Below, one piece after another: positions 8,239 to 22,205 of a DNA stretch of 64,000 nucleotides; position 1 is the stretch's first letter; each line of letters begins with the position of its first letter. The notes under the pieces were generated by a model. That model was not told the DNA's origin and made no database searches. It worked only from the letters and a program-made list of their open reading frames with translations. Origin of the DNA: Actinoplanes italicus (GTDB lineage Bacteria; Actinomycetota; Actinomycetes; Mycobacteriales; Micromonosporaceae); NCBI RefSeq assembly GCF_003001815.1, contig NZ_PVMZ01000008.1, positions 372,001-436,000 on the forward strand. Reading direction: 5' to 3'. A program made the position numbers and the translations under genes.

Positions 8239-9066
8239 ATGAGTCGCTCCACGACGCGTCGCACGGTGGTCAGCATCGATGTGAGCTCGTCGCCCGGCAT
8301 CCGGAGCCGTCAGGATCACCTGGCAGCAGAGGAGCCGCTGGAGATCCGGGTCCGGAAGAAGCCGCTCGCCGTGACCATGCGCACACCGGGTCACGACATC
8401 GACCTCGCGATGGGGTTCCTGCTCAGCGAAGGTGTGATCGGAGTCGCATCGGACGTGACGACGGCCCAGCTGTGCGCCGGGACCGACACCCCGAACACGT
8501 ACAACGTGGTGGACGTGGTCCTCGACCCGAACGTGCCACCGCCGGTCACCGACCCGACCCGCAACTTCTACACCACCAGCTCGTGCGGGGTCTGCGGCAA
8601 GGCCAGCATCGACGCGGTACGGACCAGGTCGCGCTTCGACGTCTCCACCGACCCGCTGGAGATCCCGGCCCGCACGCTGGCCGCGATGCCGGCGCGGCTG
8701 CGTGCCGCCCAGCGCGCCTTCGACCGCACCGGCGGCCTGCACGCGGCCGGGCTCTTCACCGCCGACGGTGATCTGCTGGTGCTGCGCGAGGACGTGGGCC
8801 GGCACAACGCGGTCGACAAGGTGCTCGGCTGGGCGCTGCGCGAGGGCAGACTGCCGCTGGCCGGGCACGTGCTGCTGGTCTCCGGGCGGGCCAGTTTCGA
8901 ACTGACCCAGAAGGCCTGGATGGCCGGGCTGCCGATGCTGGCGGCGGTATCCGCACCCAGCACGCTCGCTGTCGAGCTGGCGGAGGAATCCGGAATGACG
9001 CTTGTCGGATTCCTCCGCGAACCGAAGATGAACATCTATGCCGGAGCGCATCGCGTCACCGTCTGA
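8239..9066 (+). CDS. fdhD: formate dehydrogenase accessory sulfurtransferase FdhD
   Basis: FdhD transfers sulfur from the cysteine desulfurase IscS to the molybdenum cofactor of formate dehydrogenases. The 275-residue product holds the invariant SSCGVCGK segment with the CxxC pair (nucleotides 8579-8602), the substrate segment [18 protein letters not shown], and [14 protein letters not shown]. The ATG at 8239 starts directly after a short intergenic gap. It is divergent from mobA. No formate dehydrogenase gene is in the window, so its client enzyme must be encoded elsewhere. Confidence 0.95.
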
Positions 9067-9104
9067 CCAGCTGTTGTTCACCCGCATCTCCAACGCTTCG
9101 ACGC

Positions 9105-10745
9105 ATGCCGATATCGCGTCGCATTCTGCTGACCTCGGCGGCCGGTGCCGCCACCGTGATTCCGCTGACCGCCGCCGCCACGCCGTACCGCGGCCCGCTG
9201 CGAGCCGACCCGTTCACCCTCGGCGTCGCCTCCGGTGACCCGTCTCCTGACGGCGTAGTGCTCTGGACCCGTCTCGCCGTCGCGCCGCTCGCCGACGACG
9301 GGCTCGGCGGCATGCCGTACCGCACCGTGCCGGTGATCTGGGAACTCGCCGCCGACGAACGTTTCCGCAAGGTCGTTCGCCGCGGTGTCGTGCAGGCTCG
9401 CCCGGACCGGGGGCACAGCGTGCACGTCGAACTCGACGGCCTGGCACCGGGCCGGGAGTTCTTCTACCGGTTCCGCACCGAGCGGTACGTCTCGCCGGTG
9501 GGCCGCACCCGCACCGCGCCACCGCGATGGGCCCGTGATCTCACCCTGGCCATGTCGTTCGTCTCCTGCTCCCAGTACGAGCACGGATACTTCACCGCGT
9601 ACCGCCGGCTGGCCGAGGACGAACCGGACCTGATCCTGCACCTGGGCGACTACCAGTACGAATACGCGCCGGACACCTACAACATCCCGGGTGGCAACCC
9701 GCGCGACCACCAGGGCCCCGAGACCGTGACGCTGGCGAATTACCGGCAGCGGCACGCCCAGTACAAGACCGACCCGGACCTGCAGGCCGCCCACGCGGCC
9801 GCGCCCTGGGCGGTGGTGTGGGACGACCACGAGACCGAGAACAACTGGGCCGACGAGGTGCCCGAGCAGGCCGATCCGAACTTCCTGGTCCGCCGTGCCG
9901 CCGCGTTCCAGGCGTACTACGAGAACATGCCGTTGCGGCGCACCTCGATCCCGCGCGGCATCGACATGCAGCTGTACCGGCGGCTGCACTGGGGCAGGCT
10001 CGCCACGTTCCACATGCTCGACACCCGGCAGTACCGCGACGACCAGGGTTGCGGCGACGGTTACAAGGACTGTCCGGCCGCGTCCGACCCGGCCCGCAGC
10101 ATCACGGGCGCCGAGCAGGAGGCGTGGCTGCTCGACGGTTTCCGCCGTTCGACCGCCCGCTGGGACATCCTCGGCCAGCAGGTCTTCTTCGGGCAGCGGG
10201 ACAACAACTCCGGTCCGCAGAAGGTGCTCAGCATGGACTCGTGGGACGGGTACCAGGGGTCGCGGGACCGGATCACCCGTGGCTGGGTGGACGCCGGGGT
10301 CCGCAACCCGGTCGTGCTCACCGGCGACGTGCACGCGCACTGGGCCGACGAGCTGAAGCTGGACTGGAACGACCCGGCCTCGCGGACCGTCGGCACGGAG
10401 CTGGTCTGCTCGTCGATCACCTCGGGTGGTGACGGCGCCGACGTGGCGAGCGGCAACCACAGCTGGGCGGCCTGGAACCCGCACCTGCGCTTTTACAACA
10501 ACCAGCGCGGTTACGTCCGGACACGGATCACCGGGGAGGCGCTGACCGCCGACTTCGTGGTGCTGCCGTACGTGACGACCGCCGGGGCGCCGGCGCACAC
10601 CCGGGCCTCGTTCGTGATCGAGGACCGGGTGCCGGGCCTGCACCAGGTCGCCGACACTCCCACGCCCTCTCCGGCGCTGCGGTCGTCGGCCGCGCCGGCT
10701 GATCTCGGTGCGGAGACCGTCCGGCAGGAGACCGAGCGGCCCTGA
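9105..10745 (+). CDS. phoD: secreted PhoD-type alkaline phosphatase/phosphodiesterase
   Basis: A 546-residue phosphatase of the PhoD family, usually exported and active on phosphodiesters and monoesters with Ca/Fe cofactors. The N-terminus ISRRILLTSAAGAATVIPLT has the twin-arginine pattern and an Ala-rich hydrophobic core, so export in folded form is likely. A PhoD N-terminal beta domain follows (DPFTLGVASGDPSPDGVVLW). The metallophosphatase domain shows ILHLGDYQYE, VVWDDHETENNW, FGQRDNN and TGDVHAHW. The gene stands alone and converges with a DUF4192 gene eight bases away. Phosphate-starvation control is common for this family, but I found no clear PHO box. Confidence 0.92.
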   Translation: MPISRRILLTSAAGAATVIPLTAAATPYRGPLRADPFTLGVASGDPSPDGVVLWTRLAVAPLADDGLGGMPYRTVPVIWELAADERFRKVVRRGVVQARPDRGHSVHVELDGLAPGREFFYRFRTERYVSPVGRTRTAPPRWARDLTLAMSFVSCSQYEHGYFTAYRRLAEDEPDLILHLGDYQYEYAPDTYNIPGGNPRDHQGPETVTLANYRQRHAQYKTDPDLQAAHAAAPWAVVWDDHETENNWADEVPEQADPNFLVRRAAAFQAYYENMPLRRTSIPRGIDMQLYRRLHWGRLATFHMLDTRQYRDDQGCGDGYKDCPAASDPARSITGAEQEAWLLDGFRRSTARWDILGQQVFFGQRDNNSGPQKVLSMDSWDGYQGSRDRITRGWVDAGVRNPVVLTGDVHAHWADELKLDWNDPASRTVGTELVCSSITSGGDGADVASGNHSWAAWNPHLRFYNNQRGYVRTRITGEALTADFVVLPYVTTAGAPAHTRASFVIEDRVPGLHQVADTPTPSPALRSSAAPADLGAETVRQETERP

Positions 10746-16856: not shown

Positions 16857-18344
16857 TTGTTGGTGTTCTTCGCGGTGGTCCTGCTGACCATCGGCCTGAT
16901 CCACTTCTACCTCTGGAAGCGGCTGGTCCGTGACCCACTGCGGCCCGGGCTGGGGCGGCGGGCCGGGACGGTGCTGGCCGTGGTGCTGTTCGCTCTGGTC
17001 CCGGCGACCCTCATCGGGGTTCGCGCCGGCTACTTCCAGTGGCTGTCGTGGCCGGGCTATCTGTGGGTCGCCCTGATGTTCTACCTGCTCGTCACGCTCC
17101 TGGTGCTGGAGATCCCACGGCTGCTGACGTTGCGCCTGTGGGCCGGCTCCTCCCGTACCGCCAACGATGTCCCGACCGATGGCAGCCCTGCCGTCCGCGA
17201 GCCGGGAACCGCCAAGGATGTCCCGACCGATGGCAGCCCTGCCGTCCGCGGGCCGGGAACCGCCAAGGATGTCCCGACCGATGGCAGCCCTGCCGTCCGT
17301 GAAGCGGGCACCGCCACGGCCGTCACGGCTGCGGCCGCGCCCGCGAGCATCGTCCGCGCAGGTAAGGACGGTGCTCTTGCCCAGCCTGCCGCCGGTGGCG
17401 TCAGCAGGGCGGCGGACACCGGCCTCGGCGGGTCGGTCCCACCGGTCACGGGGGCGGCTGGCGGAACGCCGGGCGCGTCCGACGGGGGCGCCGACGGTGC
17501 GAGCGCAGACTCGGAGAAGCGCGGCATCGAGCGCCGCCTGCTGATCGCCCGGGGCACCGCGATCTTCGCGGGCCTGACCGCCGCCGGCATCACCGGCTAC
17601 GGCGTGAAGACGGCCACCGGCGCGCCGCAGATCGACCGGGTCCGGATTCCGATCGCCAAGCTGCCACGGGCGATGGACGGCACCCGGCTGGCGGTCGTGT
17701 CCGACATCCACATCGGGCCGCTGACCGGGGTCGACCATGCCCGCCGGATCGTCCGGGTCATCAACTCGGTGAACGCCGACCTGGTCTGCGTCGTCGGTGA
17801 CCTGGTCGACGGCAGCGTGGCCGAGCTGGGACGATTCGCCGCGCCGCTGGCCGGCATCGAGTCCCGGCACGGTGCGTTCTTCGTGACCGGCAACCACGAG
17901 TACTACTCCGGTGCCGAGGAGTGGATCGACGAGGTGGCCCGGCTGGGGATCCGGCCGCTGCGCAACGAGCGGGTCGAGATCAACGGACTCGACCTGGCCG
18001 GGGTGAACGACCTGACCGGCGAGCAGCAGGGCGACGCCCCGGACTTCGCCCGTGCGCTCGGCGACCGGGACACCAACCGTCCGGTCGTCCTGATGGCCCA
18101 CCAGCCGGTCGCGGCGCGGGAGGCGGCGCCGTACGGGGTGGACCTTCAGGTGTCGGGTCACACGCACGGCGGTCAGATGGCCCCGTTCAACATGCTCGTG
18201 AAACTCCAGCAGCCGGTAGTCTCCGGCTTCGGGGAGGTGGACGGCGTGCCGGTTTACGTGACCAACGGCGCGGGATTCTGGGGTCCGCCGGTCCGGGTGG
18301 GCGCGCCCCCGCAGGTCACGGTCATCGAATTGCGTGTGGCATAA
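16857..18344 (+). CDS. membrane-anchored metallophosphoesterase
   Basis: A 495-residue protein with about three N-terminal membrane helices (residues 1-16, 38-58, 64-90) and a fourth hydrophobic stretch near residue 235. A C-terminal calcineurin-like phosphoesterase domain then shows VVSDIHIGPL, VVGDLVDGS, TGNHEYYSG, LMAHQP and GHTHGGQ, a full set of metal ligands. This matches YaeI/YkuE-type enzymes, some of which act on lipid A-like or other lipids; the substrate here is unknown. The TTG at 16857 has GGGGAGG six bases upstream. The linker holds three exact-like 17-residue repeats (DVPTDGSPAVR core) from 51-bp DNA repeats at 17157-17309. Confidence 0.87.
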   Translation: MLVFFAVVLLTIGLIHFYLWKRLVRDPLRPGLGRRAGTVLAVVLFALVPATLIGVRAGYFQWLSWPGYLWVALMFYLLVTLLVLEIPRLLTLRLWAGSSRTANDVPTDGSPAVREPGTAKDVPTDGSPAVRGPGTAKDVPTDGSPAVREAGTATAVTAAAAPASIVRAGKDGALAQPAAGGVSRAADTGLGGSVPPVTGAAGGTPGASDGGADGASADSEKRGIERRLLIARGTAIFAGLTAAGITGYGVKTATGAPQIDRVRIPIAKLPRAMDGTRLAVVSDIHIGPLTGVDHARRIVRVINSVNADLVCVVGDLVDGSVAELGRFAAPLAGIESRHGAFFVTGNHEYYSGAEEWIDEVARLGIRPLRNERVEINGLDLAGVNDLTGEQQGDAPDFARALGDRDTNRPVVLMAHQPVAAREAAPYGVDLQVSGHTHGGQMAPFNMLVKLQQPVVSGFGEVDGVPVYVTNGAGFWGPPVRVGAPPQVTVIELRVA

Positions 18345-18409
18345 CCCATCAAGATCGGTAAGTGTGTTTGAGCGTGGCGAAGCTTGGCGAGACCGACGGC
18401 CGTGACAGG

Positions 18410-21400
18410 ATGCGGAGTGTGGAGGTCAGCACGAATACATATGTCGCGGACCTGCACATTCATTCTCGCTACTCGCGGGCGTGCAGCCGTGATCTGACGC
18501 TGCCCAACCTCGCATGGTGGGCGCGGCGCAAGGGCATCGCCCTGCTCGGCACCGGTGACTTCACTCATCCGGCATGGTTCGAGCACCTCAAGGAGAGCCT
18601 CGAGCCGGCCGAGCCCGGTCTGTTCCGGCTCGCCGACGAGAGCCCGGTCACCAAGCGCCTGCCGGGTTCGCTGCGTGGCACGACACCGGCCCGGTTCATG
18701 CTCAGCGTGGAGATCTCGACGATCTACAAACGCGACGACAAGACCCGCAAGGTCCACCACCTGCTGTACGCCCCCGACTTCGCCTCCGTGGAGAAGATCA
18801 ACACAGCGCTGTCCCGGATCGGCAACCTGACCGCGGACGGCCGCCCGATCCTGGGGCTCGACTCGCGGAACCTCCTGGAGATCACCCTGGAGGCCGGCGG
18901 CTATCTGGTTCCGGCGCACATCTGGACGCCGTGGTTCTCCGCGCTGGGCTCCAAGTCGGGCTTCGACGCGATCGCCGACTGCTACGCCGACCTCGCCGAT
19001 CACGTGACCGCGGTGGAGACCGGCCTCTCCTCGGATCCGGAGATGAACTGGCGGGTCTCGAGCCTCGACCGGTACCGCCTGGTCTCGAACTCGGACGCGC
19101 ACTCCCCGGCCGCCCTGGCCCGCGAGGCGACGCTGTTCACCGGCGTTCCGGACTACTTCGCGGTGAAGGACGGTGCCGGCCTGGCCGGGACGCTCGAGTT
19201 CTTCCCCGAGGAGGGCAAGTATCACGCCGACGGCCACCGCGCCTGCGGCGTGAACTGGGAACCCGCGAAGACCCGCGCCGCGAACGGCCGCTGCCCCGAG
19301 TGCGGGCGCCCGCTGACCGTCGGCGTACTGAGCCGGGTCGAGGACCTCGCCGACCGCCCGCTCGGCTTCCACAGGGACGACCACGTCGAGCACCTGATCC
19401 AGCTGCACGAGATCATCGGCGAGATCCACGGCGTCGGGCCGAAGTCGAAGACGGTCGAGTCGCAGCTCAACCACCTGGTCGCCACTCTCGGCGCCGAGCT
19501 GGACATCCTGCGTAAGGTGCCGGTCGACGAGATCGGCAAGGCGGGTGGCGACGAACTGCGGGAGGCGATCACCCGGCTGCGGCGCGGTGACGTGCGACGG
19601 GTGCCCGGGTACGACGGTGAATACGGCGTGATCACCCTCTTCGACCCGGGTGAGCTGCGTAACCGCAACAGCGCCCCGCAGGTGGAGACGCTGTTCGACT
19701 TCCCGGCCGCGACGAAACCGAAGGCCGAACCGGCCGCCGCGCCGGCGAAACCGAAGGCCAAGCCGGCCAAGGAGAAGCCGGCACCGCCACCGCTGGCACC
19801 GCCACCGAGCCCTCATGAGCCGTTCGAGCCGATGCTCGCCGGCATGGAGGAGGTCGGCACCGGCCTGCTGGACCGGCTGGACGCGATGCAGCGGGTGGCC
19901 GCGTCGGCGCCGGGCGGGCCGCTGCTGATCGTGGCGGGCCCGGGCACCGGCAAGACCCGGACACTGACGCACCGGATCGCGTACCTCTGCGCCGAACTCG
20001 GTGTCTTCCCGGAGCGATGTCTGGCGATCACCTTCACCCGGCGGGCCGCCGCCGAGCTGAAGGAGCGCCTCGAGGCGCTGCTCGGGGACGTGGCCGAGGA
20101 CATCACGGTGGGCACGTTCCACTCGCTGGGCCTGACCGTGCTGAAGGAGAACGCGAAGGCCGCCGGGCTCGGTTCGGGCTGGCGGATCGCCGACGAGCAA
20201 GAGCAGGCACAGGCCAGGGAACAGGCCGGCGACGACGACGCGGCGTACCGGAAACTGCTGCGCCAGCAGGACCTGGTGGACCTCGACGATCTGATCAGCG
20301 TGCCGGTGGCGCTGCTGCGCGACGACCCGGCGCTGGTGGAGAAGTACCGCAGGCGCTGGCAGTGGATCTTCGTGGACGAGTACCAGGACGTCGACGAGTT
20401 GCAGTACGAACTGCTGCGCCAGCTCAGCCCGCCGAACGGCAACCTGTGCGCGATCGGTGACCCGGACCAGGCGATCTACTCGTTCCGTGGCGCCGACGTG
20501 CAGTACTTCCTGCGCTTCAACTCCGACTTCGTGGACGCCCGGCTGGTACGGCTGACCCGCAACTACCGGTCGTCGGCACCGATCCTGGCCGCCGCCGTGC
20601 AGGCGATCGCACCGTCGACGCTGGTCAGTGGCCGTCGGCTGGACCCGGCACGGCTGGACCCGGAGGCGTCTCTGGTGGGCCGCTACTCGGCACGCGGTGT
20701 CGCCGACGAGGCCGACTTCGTGGTCCGCACGATCGACGAGCTGGTCGGCGGTCTGTCGCACCGTTCGCTCGACTCGGGCCGCGTCGACTCCCGCGCCGCC
20801 GCCGTCGGGAACCTGTCGTTCTCGGACATCGCGGTGCTGTACCGCACCGACGCGCAGTCCGGTCCGATCCTCGACGCGCTGTCCCGCGCCGGTATCCCCG
20901 TGCAGAAGCGTTCACACAACCGGCTGCGGGACCGCGCCGGCGTACCCGAGATCGCCCGGGAGCTACGGCACGCGGGGGGCACCGGCGGTTCGCTGACCGC
21001 CCGGGTGAAGGCCGCTGCCCGGATGCTGGTCCAGCGGTGCGCGGCGCCGACCCTCGACGGCGATCAGCTCGCCCCCGAGGATGTCCGGCTCGCCGCCGAC
21101 CTGCTGACGCCCCTGGCCGACCGGCTCGGCGACGACCTGCCGTTGTTCCTCCAGCAGCTGGCGACCGGAGCCGAGGTGGACGCGCTGGATCCGCGGGCCG
21201 AGGCGGTCAACCTGCTCACCCTGCATGCCGCGAAGGGCCTGGAGTTCCCGGTGGTGTTCCTGGCCGGTTGCGAGGACGGGCTGCTGCCGCTGCGCTGGCC
21301 GGGTTCGACGCCGTCGGAGGAGGAGACCGCGGAGGAGCGCCGGCTGTTCTTCGTGGGGCTGACGCGTGCGCAGGACCGGCTCTACGTGAGCCATGCGGCG

Positions 21401-21535
21401 AAGCGGTTCCGGCACGGCAGCGAACGCGAGCAGACACCGACGCCGTTCCTCGATGTGATCGATTCCGGACTGTTCGAGAAACTGGGCGAGGCCACCCCGG
21501 CACGACCGAAGGACAGGCAGCTCAGACTGCTGTGA
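18410..21535 (+). CDS. EndoQ-like PHP nuclease with zinc ribbon fused to UvrD/Rep-type helicase
   Basis: A 1,041-residue fusion. Residues 10-430 resemble PHP phosphoesterases with a zinc ribbon (COG1379; EndoQ): ADLHIHSRYSRACSRDLT, GTGDFTHP, VEISTIYKR, KVHHL, PAHIWTPWFSALGSKSGF, SNSDAHSP, then a ribbon with Cys at about 279, 295 and 298. EndoQ nicks DNA 5' of deaminated bases. After a Lys/Pro/Ala linker comes an SF1A helicase: Walker A VAGPGTGKTRT (about 507), FVDEYQDVDELQ, IGDPDQAIYSFRGAD, LTRNYRSS, LHAAKGLEFPVVFLAG and RRLFFVGLTRAQDRLYVS. The ATG at 18410 is chosen; in-frame GTGs at 18362 and 18419 are alternatives. It likely couples lesion incision to strand unwinding, which is inference. 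Confidence 0.88.
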   Translation: MRSVEVSTNTYVADLHIHSRYSRACSRDLTLPNLAWWARRKGIALLGTGDFTHPAWFEHLKESLEPAEPGLFRLADESPVTKRLPGSLRGTTPARFMLSVEISTIYKRDDKTRKVHHLLYAPDFASVEKINTALSRIGNLTADGRPILGLDSRNLLEITLEAGGYLVPAHIWTPWFSALGSKSGFDAIADCYADLADHVTAVETGLSSDPEMNWRVSSLDRYRLVSNSDAHSPAALAREATLFTGVPDYFAVKDGAGLAGTLEFFPEEGKYHADGHRACGVNWEPAKTRAANGRCPECGRPLTVGVLSRVEDLADRPLGFHRDDHVEHLIQLHEIIGEIHGVGPKSKTVESQLNHLVATLGAELDILRKVPVDEIGKAGGDELREAITRLRRGDVRRVPGYDGEYGVITLFDPGELRNRNSAPQVETLFDFPAATKPKAEPAAAPAKPKAKPAKEKPAPPPLAPPPSPHEPFEPMLAGMEEVGTGLLDRLDAMQRVAASAPGGPLLIVAGPGTGKTRTLTHRIAYLCAELGVFPERCLAITFTRRAAAELKERLEALLGDVAEDITVGTFHSLGLTVLKENAKAAGLGSGWRIADEQEQAQAREQAGDDDAAYRKLLRQQDLVDLDDLISVPVALLRDDPALVEKYRRRWQWIFVDEYQDVDELQYELLRQLSPPNGNLCAIGDPDQAIYSFRGADVQYFLRFNSDFVDARLVRLTRNYRSSAPILAAAVQAIAPSTLVSGRRLDPARLDPEASLVGRYSARGVADEADFVVRTIDELVGGLSHRSLDSGRVDSRAAAVGNLSFSDIAVLYRTDAQSGPILDALSRAGIPVQKRSHNRLRDRAGVPEIARELRHAGGTGGSLTARVKAAARMLVQRCAAPTLDGDQLAPEDVRLAADLLTPLADRLGDDLPLFLQQLATGAEVDALDPRAEAVNLLTLHAAKGLEFPVVFLAGCEDGLLPLRWPGSTPSEEETAEERRLFFVGLTRAQDRLYVSHAAKRFRHGSEREQTPTPFLDVIDSGLFEKLGEATPARPKDRQLRLL

Positions 21536-22205
21536 GTCCCAGGCAGGCACCGAGCAGCAGCGCGGGCCCGAACGGGATCGGGCGTGCCCGGCGAGTCACC
21601 AGCAACCAGGTGGCGATCGCGCCGTTGAGAAGGTGGGCGGTGCCGAGACCCACGGCCACCGCCGGCCAGCCCGCGAACCCGAGCAGGAACGCCAGTGCCG
21701 CGCCCAGTTTCACGTCGCCGAGGCCGAGTCCGCGCCCGGGTAGCAGGGCGATCGCCAGATAGGCGGTGCCGACCAGCAGCCCGGCTGTCAGGGCCGGAAC
21801 GATCCGGTCCGGCGCGAGCAGGGCGAGCGGGATGCCTCCGGCCAGAGCGAGGACACCGACCAGCCGGTCGGGCAGTCGCAGGCACCCGAGGTCGATCATC
21901 GCGAGAAGGAGTCCGGGGATCGCCGCGAGCAGGTGGACCGGCAGTTGCGGCACGGGGCCGAGCACCGCGGCCAGCAGTCCGGCGACCAGCGCGAGTGTCA
22001 CCGGCGGCAGATGTCCATCGGTGCAGCAGGCCGGTCCGGTGTGAATCCATCCGGATACCCCGGCGGGGAAGGGGCGGCCGCACCGGCCGCACTCGGCACG
22101 GGCCGGCGATCCGAATGGGACAGTCAGGCGATGGCCGATCCGGGGCAGGAACGCTCCGGCCGCCGCGCCGAAGAGCATCGACAAGATCACCAGTTGTGAC
22201 GACAC
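21522..22205 (-). CDS. prepilin peptidase (A24 family)
   Basis: A 227-residue polytopic membrane protease of the type IV prepilin peptidase family, which cleaves leader peptides of pilins. The N-terminal Cys motif is ECGRCGRPFP with a following ACC pair; the two catalytic Asp residues lie in MIDLGCLRLPDRL and GLGLGDVKLGAAL. Six to seven hydrophobic helices are present. The methylase-like N-terminal domain is short. The start is a GTG at 22205. Its end overlaps the helicase gene by 14 bases in convergent orientation. No pilin or secretion ATPase gene is nearby, so its substrates are encoded elsewhere. Confidence 0.85.
   Translation of the reverse strand: MSSQLVILSMLFGAAAGAFLPRIGHRLTVPFGSPARAECGRCGRPFPAGVSGWIHTGPACCTDGHLPPVTLALVAGLLAAVLGPVPQLPVHLLAAIPGLLLAMIDLGCLRLPDRLVGVLALAGGIPLALLAPDRIVPALTAGLLVGTAYLAIALLPGRGLGLGDVKLGAALAFLLGFAGWPAVAVGLGTAHLLNGAIATWLLVTRRARPIPFGPALLLGACLGLTAV

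Follow-up and report, generated by a model that had tools for sequence, protein, structure and literature searches.

A conserved EndoQ-UvrD fusion protein ending in a putative sliding-clamp motif in Actinoplanes italicus and other bacteria

What would a bacterial protein do that carries an Endonuclease Q (EndoQ)-like nuclease and a UvrD-type helicase on a single chain? This question is raised by a gene in a 64,000-nucleotide stretch of the Actinoplanes italicus genome (contig NZ_PVMZ01000008.1, positions 372,001 to 436,000; hereafter, the window), whose product joins the two domains and ends in a putative binding motif for the sliding clamp DnaN. EndoQ is known as a stand-alone enzyme of the archaeal or Bacillus type, and in the literature cited here the steps downstream of its nick are left open. 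A conserved fusion with a helicase and a clamp motif would reveal how bacteria proceed after the nick and would offer a one-protein system for glycosylase-free repair of deaminated bases. We propose, with a probability of about 0.6, that the fusion is tethered to the clamp, nicks on the 5′ side of deaminated bases and then peels off the lesion strand.

An EndoQ domain and a trimmed helicase on one chain

The domain identities of the protein are near certain. A scan of GTDB contigs yielded at least 589 pattern matches, of which 585 were confirmed, and the best 80 were kept for analysis. The two domains are fused at 78 of these 80 loci (76 with a P-loop after residue 400, plus L078 and L080 with a variant P-loop), a count that describes the most similar of at least 585 relatives and not the fused share among all of them. 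Because the fusion recurs in this way, a chance joining or a chimeric assembly is ruled out, and the claim of the initial annotation that an EndoQ-like domain and a UvrD helicase share one polypeptide is borne out by this recurrence together with Pfam, NCBIfam and PDB searches. At the other two loci, L085 and L098, no helicase was found within 900 bases downstream. Contig ends cut four of the fused loci (L061, L074, L081 and L099), and frame breaks occur in two (L035 and L095). The variant P-loops of L078 and L080 read ADPGSGKT and GPGAGKT. Residue conservation is given below for an alignment (A3) of the window with 54 of the 70 full-length loci, in which close relatives were thinned by hand, making 55 fusions in total. 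The features of the window protein are collected in Table 1.

Table 1. Coordinates of the fusion gene and its parts within the window
Feature	Position	Strand	Basis
EndoQ-UvrD fusion gene, 1041 residues	18410..21535	+	Open reading frame from ATG; fused in 78/80 related loci
EndoQ domain (residues 13-410), comprising a PHP catalytic core, a zinc ribbon and a helical C-terminal part	18446..19639	+	phmmer, Foldseek
Zinc ribbon, H276-x2-C279 ... C295-x2-C298	19235..19303	+	Alignment to EndoQ; His replaces the first Cys of the archaeal ribbon
Linker rich in Pro, Ala and Lys (residues 421-482), predicted to be disordered	19670..19855	+	pLDDT under 50; length and sequence differ among relatives
UvrD/PcrA-type SF1A helicase, residues about 490-1020	19877..21469	+	Pfam, NCBIfam, PDB, fold, conserved motifs
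Walker A, GPGTGKT, residues 510-516	19937-19957	+	Helicase motif
DEYQD, residues 656-660		+	Helicase motif
2B subdomain remnant, residues 845-918	20942..21163	+	PDB alignment, model, motif IV-V span
QLRLL (residues 1037-1041), putative motif for binding the sliding clamp DnaN	21518..21532	+	Conservation; consensus from PMC12309361

The N-terminal part had been assigned to EndoQ rather than to other PHP proteins, and both sequence and fold agree with this assignment. When residues 1-440 were compared with the PDB by phmmer, residues 13-410 aligned with residues 5-382 of Pfu (P. furiosus) EndoQ (PDB 5zb8; E 4.6e-42), the top three distinct sequences were all EndoQ (E 4.6e-42 to 2.4e-41), and the sole other match was a phosphoglycerate kinase (E 0.37). 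An AlphaFold model built from the alignment of the 55 fusions has a mean predicted local distance difference test score (pLDDT) of 84.8, with values over 85 in most ten-residue blocks of the EndoQ region. By Foldseek it superposes on 5zb8 with a target template-modelling (TM) score of 0.86, a root-mean-square deviation of 2.8 Å and 30% identity, and the best 50 of 1221 matches include no PHP proteins other than EndoQ chains. Identity as another PHP protein is thus ruled out by sequence search and fold comparison. The NCBIfam profile TIGR00375 matches residues 107-408, from profile position 72 of 374 (E 1.5e-42), with 146.3 bits, short of its curated cut-off of 326.6 bits; that cut-off is reached in none of 396 genomes of the phylum, versus 2 of 14 control genomes.

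The catalytic residues point in the same direction. According to the review PMC8307549, from which the residue roles are taken, Pfu E76, H84 and H139 are essential, each alanine mutant being dead, and H139, G169 and S171 act as a steric gate that excludes T and A. These residues correspond to E101, H116, H170, G205 and S207 of the window protein, all of which are invariant in the 55 aligned fusions, as are H231 and D229, the counterpart of Pfu D193 (a position at which the solved 7k30 chain has Asn). The active-site set E76, H84, H139 and D193 (Pfu numbering) is accordingly present in 55 of 55 fusions, and the metal ligands expected by the initial annotation are in place and conserved. The zinc ribbon that had been described is probably present as well, in the form HxxC...CxxC instead of CxxC...CxxC: its first position is His in 54 of 55 fusions and the other three are Cys in all 55. 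Histidine is able to bind zinc. Compared with the known enzymes (PfuEndoQ, PDB 5zb8 and 7k30; TkoEndoQ; MacEndoQ; Bacillus pumilus EndoQ; families COG1379 and TIGR00375), the fusion is alike in whole-length sequence and fold, in catalytic and base-gate residues, in three of the four zinc-ribbon Cys and in the clamp-type motif at its C-terminus. It differs in the helicase placed before that motif, in the His that replaces the first ribbon Cys and in its distance from PfuEndoQ, and its activity is predicted.

The C-terminal half matches the Pfam families UvrD-helicase (5.9e-66) and UvrD_C (1e-30), and its closest solved structures, by PDB sequence search and by fold, are PcrA (4.5e-82), M. tuberculosis UvrD1 and UvrD. 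The initial annotation had called this helicase complete. Its motor motifs are kept across phyla, with G512, K515, T516, D656, E657, Q659, R720 and R986 among the invariant residues; subdomains 1B and 2B are shortened, and the half scores 374.9 bits against the 911.2-bit cut-off of the PcrA equivalog TIGR01073. Measured from the alignment between helicase motifs, the motif IV-V span, which holds 2B, is 126 residues in the window versus 221 in the PcrA of the same genome (median 118, range 102-178, in the 55 fusions). The corresponding motif Ic-II span, for 1B, is 85 residues in the window versus 130 in that PcrA and 135 in a second UvrD-like helicase of the genome (median 100, range 58-131), and some fusions retain a full-sized 1B. 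Much of PcrA's 2B is thus lost, and 1B is reduced too. As 2B is autoinhibitory and Rep monomers are activated by its deletion (PMC13238157), the fusion helicase may, by analogy, be pre-activated and perhaps work as a monomer; with much of 2B gone, the fusion predicts a UvrD-type helicase that is possibly active in monomeric form. It shares motor fold and motifs with PcrA, UvrD and UvrD1, from which it is set apart by its reduced 1B and 2B, a score far under the PcrA cut-off and the terminal clamp motif.

The C-terminal motif and the proposed repair reaction

The chain ends in QLRLL, which, judged by its conservation, is likely to be a sliding-clamp docking motif. The clamp-binding consensus is QL[SD]LF or QxxLF (PMC12309361), and QLRLL has Leu at the consensus Phe position. 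Q1037 is invariant in all 55 aligned fusions, and in 48 of them no more than two residues follow QLxL[FLIMV]. The same holds for 1 of 1209 control frames, which come from the same 80 loci, have 250 residues or more and in many cases are not genes. In the larger set of 71 full-length fused frames, the pattern occurs within the last 16 residues of 63. Six of the remaining eight end in QMELF, QMSFDF, QQRLF, QPRLL, QDSLF or QLSF, the frame of L035 is shifted, and that of L050 has QLSLL followed by extra residues. The tail that bears the motif (residues 1028-1041) has low confidence in the model, so that across the fusions a clamp-type motif is found in a flexible-looking C-terminus, as befits a sliding-clamp client.

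Archaeal EndoQ binds PCNA, and is stimulated by it, via a C-terminal PIP box, and the same work already points out that EndoQ homologues of bacteria end in clamp motifs (PMC4858679). The fusion resembles this PCNA-linked enzyme as a lesion nickase with a C-terminal clamp-recruiting motif, putative here, and differs from it in having a DnaN-type motif instead of a PIP box, as well as a built-in helicase. The new element is the position of the motif after a helicase, where it is kept although the helicase separates it from EndoQ. A second, internal clamp motif is possible in the linker of Micromonosporaceae fusions, many of which (L028, L029, L032 and others) have QETLFD, a fit to QxxLF, just after the EndoQ domain; the window linker, at about 19700-19724, reads QVETLFDF, an inexact fit. 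One standalone EndoQ from another family of the phylum (L023 in genome G275, 8377-9612 on the minus strand) ends in QLSLL. Its first PHP motif starts GFDYIHS instead of ADLHIHS, perhaps because of a fault in the assembly or in the reading frame.

UvrD-type helicases move 3′ to 5′. In the proposed reaction, for which we infer the cutting itself, the range of substrates, activity as a monomer, the polarity of unwinding, contact with the clamp and the order of events, the N-terminal domain would take uracil or hypoxanthine, and perhaps also xanthine or an abasic site, into its pocket by base flipping and cut the phosphodiester 5′ of the lesion, giving a 3′-OH and a 5′-phosphate on the lesion strand, the ends that EndoQ cleavage leaves (PMC4357722). 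The trimmed helicase, lacking much of the autoinhibitory 2B, would load at the nick, run 3′ to 5′ on the intact strand and peel off the strand bearing the lesion, while the QLxLL/F motif would keep the enzyme at DnaN, allowing a polymerase bound to the clamp to extend the 3′-OH. To displace the lesion strand, which starts at the 5′-phosphate, the motor would have to run on the intact strand because motion on the nicked strand would carry it away from the lesion, and loading on the intact strand is preferred here because it would expose the lesion and leave the 3′-OH for the polymerase. As the protein contains neither polymerase nor ligase and its C-terminal motif points to the clamp, its earlier description as a self-contained repair machine is too strong.

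Several observations weigh against this proposal. The mutual orientation of the two halves is not fixed by the model, whose predicted TM score (pTM) is 0.55, and H16 (Pfu H8) is His in 53 of 55 fusions and Gln in two. A short 2B is not specific to the fusion, since the second UvrD-like helicase of the genome spans 142 residues between motifs IV and V, and seven standalone Pseudomonadota EndoQs have no clamp motif at their ends. The gene is rare in a sample of the phylum (7 of 392 genomes, two of them from the host's family) and absent or shortened in part of that family, and there is no repair gene among the eight neighbours tested by Pfam. Among 14 fusion genomes examined, UDG-family proteins occur in 14, EndoV in five and a PcrA-like helicase separate from the fusion in 14 (over its curated cut-off in four); in the host genome itself, UDG-family proteins and EndoV are accompanied by a separate PcrA (an 867-residue frame) that exceeds its curated cut-off. 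Replacement of UDG or PcrA by the fusion is therefore ruled out, both being retained in all 14 genomes, and the UDG-family and EndoV counts mean that the fusion is not the sole means of uracil repair; it would be an extra repair route in the host genome.

The same UDG-family proteins also bear on a different assignment of substrate, in which the EndoQ domain would be mainly a nickase at abasic sites or oxidised pyrimidines, acting in long-patch repair near replication forks, with deaminated bases as a minor substrate. Their retention in 14 of 14 genomes and the presence of the clamp motif agree with this assignment. We nevertheless consider it rather unlikely, as the residues corresponding to the T/A-excluding Pfu H139, G169 and S171 are invariant in 55 of 55 fusions, which fits selection on base identity, and we retain nicking at deaminated bases as the preferred reading.

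Distribution and history

The initial annotation had considered the fusion in actinobacteria; it is not special to them, as fused relatives occur under about ten phylum labels. By record titles, in which bin labels can err, these include Actinomycetota, Binatota, Myxococcota, Elusimicrobiota, Pseudomonadota, Gastranaerophilales, Planctomycetota, Verrucomicrobiota, SAR324 and one Chloroflexi-labelled bin. Among the best 80 of at least 585 loci, the nearest named relative by EndoQ domain is Actinoplanes sp. KI2, with 85% identity. In the host's family, Micromonosporaceae, 127 of 150 genomes have a match, which is single in 124 and in two pieces in the other three. The best match lies in a frame of at least 979 residues in 120 of these 127 genomes; the remaining seven genomes have shorter frames, and five of these seven are assemblies with 380 contigs or more. 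In one genus of the family (g247), the gene is missing from 9 of 12 listed genomes, and two others (G463 and G479, in assemblies of 40-50 contigs) have shortened frames, a pattern that looks like gene decay.

Of the seven matches in the phylum sample, five lie in frames of at least 1057 residues, that of G028 reaches the end of its contig and that of G275 is a standalone EndoQ. Matches were also found in 20 of 249 genomes from the phylum of G547, an Alphaproteobacteria bin (L075): 10 frames have at least 1018 residues, eight have 410-514 and two are partial. Seven of the eight short frames have no helicase match in the sequence stretch examined, the contigs of L118 and L121 being short, and the eighth (L124) is cut by a contig end.

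An EndoQ tree was built from the window, 45 hand-picked fused loci and eight standalone sequences including L023. In the careful 53-row tree, which leaves out the long-branched L023, contains no Bacillus or archaeal EndoQ and does not fix root or direction, the 46 fused rows form one side of a branch with support of 100/99 and in 100% of 200 bootstrap trees. When L023 is included, a quick tree of 54 rows requires two changes; a single fused clade is not rejected (p-AU 0.32). Pairwise identities of the EndoQ and helicase halves are correlated (r 0.89 over 1485 pairs), part of which relatedness alone explains. From the tree and the correlated divergence of the halves, the fusion looks old and mostly of one origin.

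Mean pairwise identity is 50% in the helicase half versus 65% in the EndoQ half, and this greater variability of the helicase would suit a nuclease that had drifted to another nick substrate, such as flaps, R-loops or replication-transcription conflicts, and become part of a general clamp-bound nickase-helicase. UvrD/PcrA helicases are reported to act in conflict resolution and R-loop suppression. The unchanged pocket and metal residues make such a drift improbable in our view, and they leave cutting at deaminated bases as the reading that we favour.

In the accessible portions of the literature on EndoQ, COG1379 and PHP-UvrD proteins, no description of an EndoQ-UvrD fusion was found; the papers on Bacillus pumilus EndoQ or on EndoQ structures could mention one. 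The chances seem evenly balanced that the fusion represents an undescribed, old and phylum-crossing class of repair enzyme, in which a lesion nickase and a pre-activated helicase would work on the clamp in a glycosylase-free route beside base excision repair and EndoV.

Genomic surroundings

The neighbourhood of the gene is conserved at 25 Micromonosporaceae loci (L025-L049), and the upstream metallophosphoesterase is matched at all 25. By Pfam, the eight neighbours are this metallophosphoesterase, a prepilin peptidase, an AAA protein, a glycosyltransferase, two molybdenum-cofactor proteins, a DUF4192 protein and one without a match, so that an operon with repair genes finds no support among them. 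Outside the family, the window's neighbours are matched only sporadically (L050, L052, L062, L074, L077 and L087). At four other actinobacterial loci (L051, L056, L060 and L067), nearby frames are, by eye, what we take to be lsr2 and clpC, and at the last three of these a presumed mutY-like frame also lies within about 7 kb.

Surroundings of this kind are relevant to an anti-phage role, in which the protein would be a nuclease-helicase directed, for example, against uracil- or hypoxanthine-containing phage DNA, comparable to Gabija (GajA-GajB) in one chain. PADLOC models of GajB match the helicase half, and an antiviral role has been suggested for bacterial EndoQ (PMC8307549, citing other work). 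The GajB matches reflect UvrD homology, however, and PADLOC gave no Gabija match among nine neighbouring frames. Matches of neighbours to viperin, PDC-S10 and mad8 models (E 3.2e-14 to 6.3e-05) correspond by Pfam to the radical-SAM molybdenum-cofactor protein, the metallophosphoesterase and the AAA protein. A tblastn search of 72,556 plasmid and 50,697 phage records gave no relative, and none of 34 pattern matches in IMG/VR encodes one. A defence island or mobile gene is thus not supported by these searches, the neighbourhood or the conserved place of the gene in its family. The fusion shares with Gabija and other nuclease-helicase defence pairs the combination of a nuclease with a UvrD-like helicase, and it differs in its PHP/EndoQ nuclease, its single chain and its conserved chromosomal location. 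The GajA nuclease is of the OLD/TOPRIM type. We regard the anti-phage role as very improbable, and housekeeping repair is likelier than defence because the gene is chromosomal, present in 127 of 150 family genomes and without a match in plasmids, phages or viral contigs.

The remaining observations concern the gene and its immediate flanks. The frame is open already from a GTG at 18362, upstream of the ATG at 18410, and a long frame on the opposite strand (18254-20761, minus) overlaps the gene; in this genome of 11.15 Mb, we take it to be a shadow frame of the sort that commonly accompanies high-GC coding sequence. The convergent prepilin-peptidase-like gene (21522-22205, minus; Peptidase_A24, E 4.7e-06) shares 14 bases with the 3′ end of the fusion gene, and frames matching it occur at 6 of the 25 Micromonosporaceae loci. 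The upstream metallophosphoesterase (16857-18344, plus) carries three tandem 17-residue units (TAKDVPTDGSPAVREPG-like) between its hydrophobic N-terminus and its catalytic domain.

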